Shown in pieces: positions 12,127-45,616 of a stretch of 49,202 bases of DNA. The stretch lies in NCBI GenBank assembly GCA_019510095.1, contig JAEKLB010000041.1, forward strand, positions 1 through 49,202, in the 5' to 3' direction. The DNA comes from Acidobacteriota bacterium (GTDB lineage Bacteria > Actinomycetota > Acidimicrobiia > Acidimicrobiales > CADCSY01). The position numbers and the translations under genes were made by a program. The notes beneath the pieces were generated by a model that saw only the letters and a program-made list of their open reading frames with translations, was not told where the DNA came from and did not search any database. Position 1 is the first letter of the stretch. Every line of letters begins with the position of its first letter.

Positions 12127-12198
12127 CGGGGAGTGGCGCAGTGGTAGCGCACAGCCTTTGGGTGGCTGAGGTCGGGGGTTCAAATCCCCCCTCCCCGA
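12127..12198 (+). tRNA. tRNA-Pro (anticodon TGG)
   Basis: Folds as a full cloverleaf: acceptor CGGGGAG/CTCCCCG, D stem GCGC/GCGC, anticodon stem CAGCC/GGCTG with loop TTTGGGT, T stem GGGGG/CCCCC with loop TTCAAAT and discriminator A. No CCA is encoded. Confidence 0.95.
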
Positions 12199-12214
12199 CT
12201 GTCAGACTTAGCGA

Positions 12215-12291
12215 TCGCTGCTGGCGCAGCGGGTAGCGCACTGTTCCTCCGGGGTGGCCTGAGGTCGGGGGTTCAAATCCCCCCTCCCCGA
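12215..12291 (+). pseudogene. tRNA-Pro-like pseudogene (3' half duplicated)
   Basis: The 3' part, from the end of the anticodon arm to the discriminator, is identical to that of the adjacent tRNA-Pro, and a D-arm-like GGCGCAGCGGGTAGCGCA is present. However, the 5' acceptor strand (TCGCTGC) cannot pair with CTCCCCG, and the anticodon arm region is four bases longer and has no stem. It looks like a partial, degenerate duplication and not a working tRNA. Confidence 0.65.
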
Positions 12292-12315
12292 CGGAGCCGG
12301 GCAGCATGGCTTCAC

Positions 12316-12386
12316 GCGGGTGTAGCTCAATGGCAGAGCCACAGATTTCCAATCTGTTGACGGGAGTTCGATTCTCCTCACCCGCT
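12316..12386 (+). tRNA. tRNA-Gly (anticodon TCC)
   Basis: Cloverleaf with acceptor GCGGGTG/CACCCGC, D stem GCTC/GAGC, anticodon stem ACAGA/TCTGT, loop TTTCCAA, T stem GGGAG/CTCCT with loop TTCGATT, discriminator T. No encoded CCA. Confidence 0.95.
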
Positions 12387-12472
12387 CTCGGTTCGGATCG
12401 GGGGCGCCGGCGTGGCAACATGCCGGGGCCCCGTACCCGTGCCCGGTGCCCCACCGGTGACGAAGGAGCGGG

Positions 12473-23082: not shown

Positions 23083-23138
23083 CGGCCCTCCTCGGCGTCC
23101 ACACCTTTCGACGTCACGCGTGGGAAAACGGTTCCCCG

Positions 23139-23213
23139 GCGCCCCCGGTAGGACTCGAACCTACGACCCGCTGCTTAGAAGGCAGCCGCTCTACTCCAAC
23201 TGAGCTACGGAGG
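23139..23213 (-). tRNA. tRNA-Arg (anticodon TCT)
   Basis: On the minus strand: acceptor GCCTCCG/CGGGGGC (one T-G), D stem GCTC/GAGC with a 10-nt loop, anticodon stem GCTGC/GCAGC with loop CTTCTAA, T stem GTAGG/CCTAC, discriminator G. No encoded CCA. Confidence 0.95.
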
Positions 23214-23287
23214 CAACGGCAGCCAGCGTAAGGGAGCGGCAACGCGCCTACTGTTCCCCAGCGAGAGGCTCGTAGCGGGGAGGCCGC

Positions 23288-26682: not shown

Positions 26683-26758
26683 GGTGGCCGTAGCTCAGTT
26701 TGGTTAGAGCGCCAGGTTGTGGCCCTGGAGGTCGGGGGTTCAAGTCCCCTCGGTCACC
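26683..26758 (+). tRNA. tRNA-His (anticodon GTG)
   Basis: Acceptor GTGGCCG/CGGTCAC, D stem GCTC/GAGC, anticodon stem CCAGG/CCTGG with loop TTGTGGC, T stem GGGGG/CCCCT. The extra G(-1) typical of tRNA-His is at 26683, facing C73. Confidence 0.95.
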
Positions 26759-26789
26759 CCAGTAACACGTCGATACGATCAGCAACTTC

Positions 26790-26864
26790 GCGCCTCTAGC
26801 TCAATGGCAGAGCAACGGACTCTTAATCCGCAGGTTCTGGGTTCGAATCCCAGGGGGCGCACCA
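26790..26864 (+). tRNA. tRNA-Lys (anticodon CTT), with encoded CCA
   Basis: Acceptor GCGCCTC/GGGGCGC, D stem GCTC/GAGC, anticodon stem ACGGA/TCCGC (end mismatch), loop CTCTTAA, T stem CTGGG/CCCAG with loop TTCGAAT, then A-CCA. It is the only tRNA here encoding CCA. Its 3' end is repeated in degraded form at 45,758, so it is the likely insertion site of the downstream island. Confidence 0.95.
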
Positions 26865-44194: not shown

Positions 44195-44341
44195 CTCTCA
44201 TCTCCTCCTCGTTGGCGATCGAGTCTGACGCGCTGGCCGTCGCCGGGGATGAGCAGCGGCCTACTCACTCCCAGGTCAAGGTGATCTCACGGGGATGGCT
44301 GGCGGGGCCGCCGTCCCTGGCGCTCACTACAGTCCGATCCC
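44195..44341. promoter_or_regulatory. Divergent promoter region of SDR and Grx-propeller genes
   Basis: 147 bp. On the plus strand TACAGT (44328-44333) is a reasonable -10 box, placing a transcript start at or next to GTG 44342, so the downstream mRNA may be leaderless. No Shine-Dalgarno precedes that GTG. Confidence 0.35.
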
Positions 44342-45616
44342 GTGGAAGCCGCCGTGAGGTTGTACGCCACTCCTGGTTGAGGGATCTGCCAGATGGTCAA
44401 GGAGTTCCTCGACCGACGAGCAGTGCCCGTGACGATCCTCGACGCCACTGAGGCGGCGAACACCGCGTTCCTGGTGCAGCTCGGGCGCCTCGCCGCGCCG
44501 GTGGTCATCGTCGGGGAGACGGTGGTCTCGGGCTACGACCCCGCGGCGCTGACCGAGGCCCTGCGCGGCGGTGGCTTCGCCGTCGACAGCGCCGGGGAGG
44601 CGGCTGCGCCGACGGCGATCGCCACGGTGGCGCTGCCACGCCCGCGCTCGACCCCGACGGTGTGGGTGGCCGGGTTCCTCGACAACGCCCTGGGTTCGTT
44701 GGACGCCGCGACCGGGATGGAGCTGCCCGCCGCCACGTCGACCGGGCCGGCTCGCATCCCCGTTGGACAGAAGCCGATGGGGCTCGCCCACGACCCCGCT
44801 ACCGGGTGGATCTGGGTCAGCAACTACGAGGCCTCGACGGTCACTCGGATCGACGCCCACACCGGCGAGTACGTCGGTGGCTCCCTGGAAGCAGCGACTA
44901 CCCCGACGGCAGCTGGTGCCGCCGACCTGCTGCTCGACGCTCGCCGCCGGCGCGTCCTCGTGTCGTGTTCGTCGTGCGACGAGCTCACCGTGCTCGACGC
45001 CGACACCGGGCGCCACGTCGGCGGGACGCTGTCCGGCTCCACCATCACGGTCGGCAACCAGCCGACGGCCATGGCACTCGACGACGACCTCGACCGCCTT
45101 TTCCTCCGGGCCGGTGCCGGGATCGTGACGCTTGACGCCGAGACGCTGCAACCACTCGGTGGCTCCCTCGAAGCGGCTGGCTCCTTGCCCACGAGGGGGC
45201 GGACCGTCGCGCTCGACCGGCGGCGGAAGCGGCTGTACACCCCCGTCGACGACCAGCACGTCGTCGTCCTCGACACCGCCGGGCCGGTCGGCGCAACGCG
45301 GGAGGCATCGGCGATGGTCGAGACGGCCCGCGTGCCGTTCATGATGGTGATCGACGAGCCCCGCGACCGGGTGATCGTCTCCTGCCTCGGCGACCGGGTC
45401 GTACAGGCCATCGACATGGCATCGAACACCGTCGTCGCGTCGGGCCCGATCGGCCGAGGAGCGCGTGGTCTGGCGCTGAGCCCGGACGGCGGCGCGCTGT
45501 TCGTCTCCTGCTTCGAGGACGACGCGGTCACCGTGCTCGACGCCGCCACCCTCACCACCCTGATGGGCCCGAGCGGCGCGCCCCGAGGACCCCGCGGCTG
45601 CCTCTACGTGCCGTGA
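44342..45616 (+). CDS. Glutaredoxin-like/beta-propeller fusion with in-frame UGA: candidate selenoprotein
   Basis: From GTG 44342 the frame reads VEAAVRLYATPG, then TGA (44378-44380), then GICQMVKEFLDRRAVPVTIL without a break to the stop at 45614. The TGA stands exactly at the first Cys of the glutaredoxin C-x-x-C motif (TPG-U-GIC), the catalytic position that selenoproteins replace by Sec. The rest of the thioredoxin fold follows (APVVIVGETVVSGYDPAALT), then about 330 residues of YVTN-type beta-propeller repeats. An ATG at 44393 would yield a 407-residue protein lacking the first strand and the active site. If Sec is inserted, the product has 424 residues with Sec13 and Cys16. The alternative is a nonsense mutation. 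Confidence 0.6.
44378..44411 (+). promoter_or_regulatory. Possible bacterial SECIS hairpin starting at the UGA
   Basis: TGAGGGA (44378-44384) can pair with TTCCTCG (44405-44411) in 7 bp including two G-U pairs, enclosing 20 nt with a small upper helix (GCC/GGT around AGAT). Its position, beginning at the UGA, is like the E. coli fdhF element. Folding energy not computed. Confidence 0.3.

Follow-up and report, generated by a model that had tools for sequence, protein, structure and literature searches.

Gene structure and domain organisation

The window, meaning the whole stretch of 49,202 nucleotides analysed here, carries on its forward strand a gene (44342..45616) predicted to encode a fusion of a selenocysteine (Sec)-containing glutaredoxin and a beta-propeller, of at most 424 residues. 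Reading 44342-45613 with TGA as U gives 424 residues, VEAAVRLYATPGUGICQMVKEFL...GCLYVP, followed by the terminal TGA at 45614-45616. The sole internal TGA is codon 13 (44378-44380), which occupies the first position of a U-x-x-C motif, and the TGC codon of the second, presumably resolving, Cys (44387-44389) corresponds to an invariant alignment column, giving the active site TPG-U-GI-C. The preliminary description of this DNA had reported an intact frame with a lone TGA at the first catalytic Cys, an intact second Cys and no further break over 424 codons, and the translation agrees with it base for base.

The frame is open upstream as far as a TGA at 44282, an open stretch of 443 codons. The start given in the preliminary description, GTG 44342, is possible but has no evident ribosome site, and GTG 44354 is probably the better choice because it encodes the first residue of the glutaredoxin domain profile and is preceded, at a distance of four bases, by a Shine-Dalgarno-like GGAAG (44345..44349). 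Automatic annotation would be expected to begin at 44393..44395, as an automatic-type ORF call does, because the first ordinary ATG in the frame is found there. The resulting product of 407 amino acids lacks the active site, a loss that the preliminary description had anticipated. The flanking genes, named by eye, are a short-chain dehydrogenase upstream on the other strand and acyl-CoA dehydrogenases downstream, and nothing about them suggests an operon. Elsewhere in the window, at 12127-12387, 23138-23214 and 26684-26864, are five ordinary tRNA genes (Pro, Gly, Arg, His, Lys).

The glutaredoxin domain comprises residues 5-76 (44354..44569). It scores 29.4 bits against the Pfam glutaredoxin profile PF00462 (cut-off 22.9, residues 5-62). 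The nearest NCBI families are the YruB- and NrdH-type glutaredoxins, both with scores below cut-off; GlrX_YruB (TIGR02196), the nearest, gives 42 bits against a cut-off of 88.55. The C-terminal part of the protein (residues 106-424, 44657..45613) is a YVTN/YncE-like beta-propeller. The YVTN beta-propeller repeat (TIGR02276) is matched with 34.5 bits (cut-off 27.85), and the profile of the YncE seven-bladed propeller (NF052280) reaches 52.8 bits against a cut-off of 400, the fold alone being shared.

A 14-row alignment of sequences from the window and the loci was used for an AlphaFold model (mean pLDDT 87), in which a flexible linker joins the glutaredoxin fold to a propeller of the YVTN/YncE type. 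The glutaredoxin part of the model has the classical order of strands and helices (strand-helix-strand-helix-strand-strand-helix), the linker (residues 84-102, 44591..44647) has pLDDT values below 50, and the best PDB matches of the model are the YVTN propeller 1l0q and Escherichia coli YncE (3vgz). Together with the PF00462 and TIGR02276 matches, the model bears out the glutaredoxin-propeller architecture first proposed from the sequence. Cysteines occur at like positions of several propeller blades (VSCSSC at 209-212, VSC at 348 and 390), and the C-S-S-C of one blade (44966..44977) could act as redox partner to the Sec. Many propeller relatives begin with a hydrophobic leader, as read by eye. 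The window protein is probably cytoplasmic, as no signal peptide precedes its glutaredoxin domain.

Selenocysteine machinery and other UGA-containing genes

The actinobacterium-like genome (assembly of 2.95 Mb in 227 contigs, about 97% complete) encodes a tRNA-Sec with anticodon UCA (score 65.9, Rfam gathering score 47), which adjoins selD (373.5 bits, NCBI cut-off 125) and selA (386 bits, NCBI cut-off 267.9). The selB gene is represented by its first 228 residues only, being cut off where contig C59 ends, and with less than half of the gene present it scores 219.4 bits against a cut-off of 242. The genome therefore holds the sel genes named in the preliminary description, selB as far as the contig end.

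Outside the window, another gene containing an in-frame TGA adjoins selA on the opposite strand (contig C222; L055:1-1026, minus strand). It matches the ResA-like WAxxUGC family (NF041054) with 307.4 bits (cut-off 300) and reads ...VVVVSWAPY-U-GCAFDLPGW..., and its frame remains open to either side of the UGA. The window gene is thus not the only Sec candidate of the genome, and the Sec machinery has a use. In the same family, tRNA-Sec is present in 8 of 11 other genomes. A TGA-bearing match resembling formate dehydrogenase also occurs in 8 of the 11, and all four of those inspected (L121-L124) read ENQARI-U-HS. An orthologue of this Sec formate dehydrogenase was not found in the window's own assembly.

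Homologous glutaredoxins at the TGA codon

Homologous glutaredoxin loci have Cys at the position of the TGA in 109 of 109 cases (TGC in 82, TGT in 27), although up to 80 of these came from a scan with two patterns, one of which required Cys; the order-level and phylum-level loci among them were selected with no Cys-bearing pattern. The second Cys is also kept in the 109 loci. Cys homologues of the kind that the preliminary description called for are therefore abundant.

A separate UxxC glutaredoxin, with the active site TPT-U-QEC-C, is encoded in five genomes (L047, L049, L129, L130, L131) that belong to a single genus within the same order. Its aligned codon is likewise TGA, and all five genomes encode tRNA-Sec. 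This protein is about 33% identical to the glutaredoxin of the window. It is about 180 amino acids long and has a conserved C-terminal extension. The hairpin that follows its UGA is strong (-27.6 kcal/mol, z -3.1), and the apical loop begins at the same distance from the UGA, 22 nt, as that of the window gene. TGA matches in two further genomes (G105 and G582) were rejected, being located not at the glutaredoxin active site but downstream of it.

A hairpin following the UGA

Bacterial SECIS (bSECIS) elements are described as having a loop of 3-9 nt with a G in the first two positions, 16-37 nt from the UGA, and a stem of 4-16 bp with a minimum free energy of -7.5 or lower (PMC13188914). Folding of the bases after the UGA predicts a putative bSECIS hairpin (44381..44428) with the loop AGUU (44403-44406) 22 nt after the UGA, an upper stem at 44394-44415 and a stem of 7-8 bp interrupted by a single mismatch. 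Its energy varies with the length that is folded, from -11.3 to -24.1 kcal/mol, and all of these values lie within the published rules. A hairpin of the expected type thus follows the UGA, in the region where the preliminary description had advised a search for one, but its specificity is low. When in-frame codons of ten coding frames in the window were folded at five lengths each, 56% passed the loose rules in at least one of the five lengths, 4.6% kept one qualifying hairpin in all five, and 1.5% did so with equal energy. Since control codons pass at these rates, the hairpin lends weak support to Sec.

Interpretation of the in-frame TGA

Taken together, the Sec machinery, the second UGA-containing gene, the Cys homologues and the separate UxxC glutaredoxin with TGA support the Sec insertion suggested in the preliminary description. 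The gene very probably encodes a cytoplasmic selenoprotein, a glutaredoxin-propeller fusion with the Sec of its glutaredoxin active site encoded by UGA 44378.

The TGA could instead be a nonsense mutation, or a consensus error of the assembly, in an ordinary Cys-x-x-Cys glutaredoxin-propeller gene. A single base change converts TGC to TGA, the gene is known from one genome in a 227-contig assembly, and no orthologue of the fusion that could show Sec/Cys exchange was found in the genomes searched. The incomplete selB also counts against the Sec reading. However, 63 codons of the gene are one base away from a stop, by 72 single-base routes (16 codons are one base from TGA), and the chance that a random nonsense change, or an error in the consensus, lands on the catalytic Cys codon is about one in 70-73. 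A pseudogene or sequence error is therefore quite improbable, given this low chance (about 1 in 73 routes) and a genome that decodes Sec, with its tRNA-Sec, sel genes and second UGA gene. No further lesion is present in the 424 codons, and in five genomes of the order the separate glutaredoxin has TGA at the same aligned codon.

We regard a genuine stop at the TGA, with translation beginning at ATG 44393, as more improbable still. The product would be a propeller protein of 407 residues in which the glutaredoxin is reduced to an inactive, truncated remnant. An automatic caller would choose this ATG, and a GAGG that could act as a ribosome site (44379-44382) lies ten bases upstream of it. Yet the eight residues before the TGA fit the conserved first strand (VRLYATPG compared with VRLYSTPT), the PF00462 match begins at position 1 of the profile, and the product would be without both catalytic residues and the first strand while the remainder of the domain is well kept. 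Reading of TGA as tryptophan (code 4) was rejected, as the site is Cys in the homologues and the gene's own terminator is TGA, so that UGA does not serve as a general sense codon in this genome.

Predicted function

In the proposed mechanism for the Sec-containing fusion, UGA 44378 would be read as selenocysteine by SelB and Sec-tRNA(UCA), guided by the stem-loop in the next 48 bases; failing Sec decoding, the ribosome would stop there. The protein, if made, would most likely act through its N-terminal glutaredoxin, with the site Sec-Gly-Ile-Cys, as a thiol (selenol)-disulfide oxidoreductase. Sec would attack a disulfide or oxidised substrate, the adjacent Cys would resolve the mixed selenide-sulfide, and a cellular thiol system would reset the Sec-Cys site. 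The disordered linker is predicted to join this domain to the YVTN-type propeller, whose most likely role is that of a docking or ligand-binding platform, delivering the redox site to its client.

A more speculative and rather unlikely possibility is that Sec reduces or forms the Cys-Ser-Ser-Cys pair of its own propeller, and the other cysteines at equivalent blade positions. The protein would then be a self-contained, selenium-dependent redox switch, in which the partner or ligand of the propeller changes with redox state. If the propeller were indeed the client of the Sec site, the selenoprotein would contain its own substrate domain, which would make it of a kind that has not been described.

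Occurrence of the fusion and comparison with known systems

No close relative of the fusion was found by protein scan in the genome-contig collection, nor in viral contigs or plasmids, and none was present in the family, order, class and phylum samples. A second scan of the genome contigs, made with an alignment, returned only Cys glutaredoxins, none with a propeller match nearby. The fusion appears to be unique among the genomes searched. The sensitive search covered some 1,100+ genomes and the large collection was searched by short peptide patterns only, so relatives of moderate identity elsewhere could have escaped. No fusion orthologue in which the UGA could be compared was found in these searches; the separate UxxC glutaredoxin keeps its TGA in five genomes.

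The UxxC Sec glutaredoxin is an established selenoprotein (PMC13188914 table; PMC1794560). In a text search of the 2026 review of 119 selenoprotein families (PMC13188914), the fusion was absent and the word "propeller" appeared nowhere, and none of the papers searched usefully paired the terms. The new part is the joining of glutaredoxin and propeller, the Sec glutaredoxin itself being already known. The prokaryotic selenoproteome would thereby gain a domain architecture, and the gene exemplifies a class of genes that are truncated at their active site in standard annotation. In this order, two or more different proteins have a glutaredoxin Sec site, which makes the group a place to look for more. 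Beyond its architecture, the fusion extends a known theme and introduces no new principle.

Like the known Sec-containing UxxC glutaredoxins (PF00462; PMC13188914), the window protein has a glutaredoxin fold with Sec first in U-x-x-C, Cys homologues and Sec machinery in the genome. Those proteins are described as small oxidoreductases, whereas the domain in the window is fused to a propeller and is nearest to the YruB and NrdH types. The Uxx-star glutaredoxin-like (seleno)proteins (NF041212, NF041211) also have Sec first in the motif, but the window protein keeps the second Cys and scores far below the cut-off (22.7 bits against 66 for NF041212). The HUGP/GUXX-star fusion selenoprotein (NF045501) and other fused selenoproteins in the 2026 list likewise join a glutaredoxin-like Sec domain to another domain; the partner domain of the window protein differs from that of HUGP/GUXX-star, and its score of 14.4 is well below the cut-off of 325. 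With the YncE and YVTN propellers (3vgz, 1l0q) the protein shares the propeller fold and repeat. It differs from them in its N-terminal redox domain, as the other propellers of the order that were inspected have no glutaredoxin-like motif in front of the propeller.
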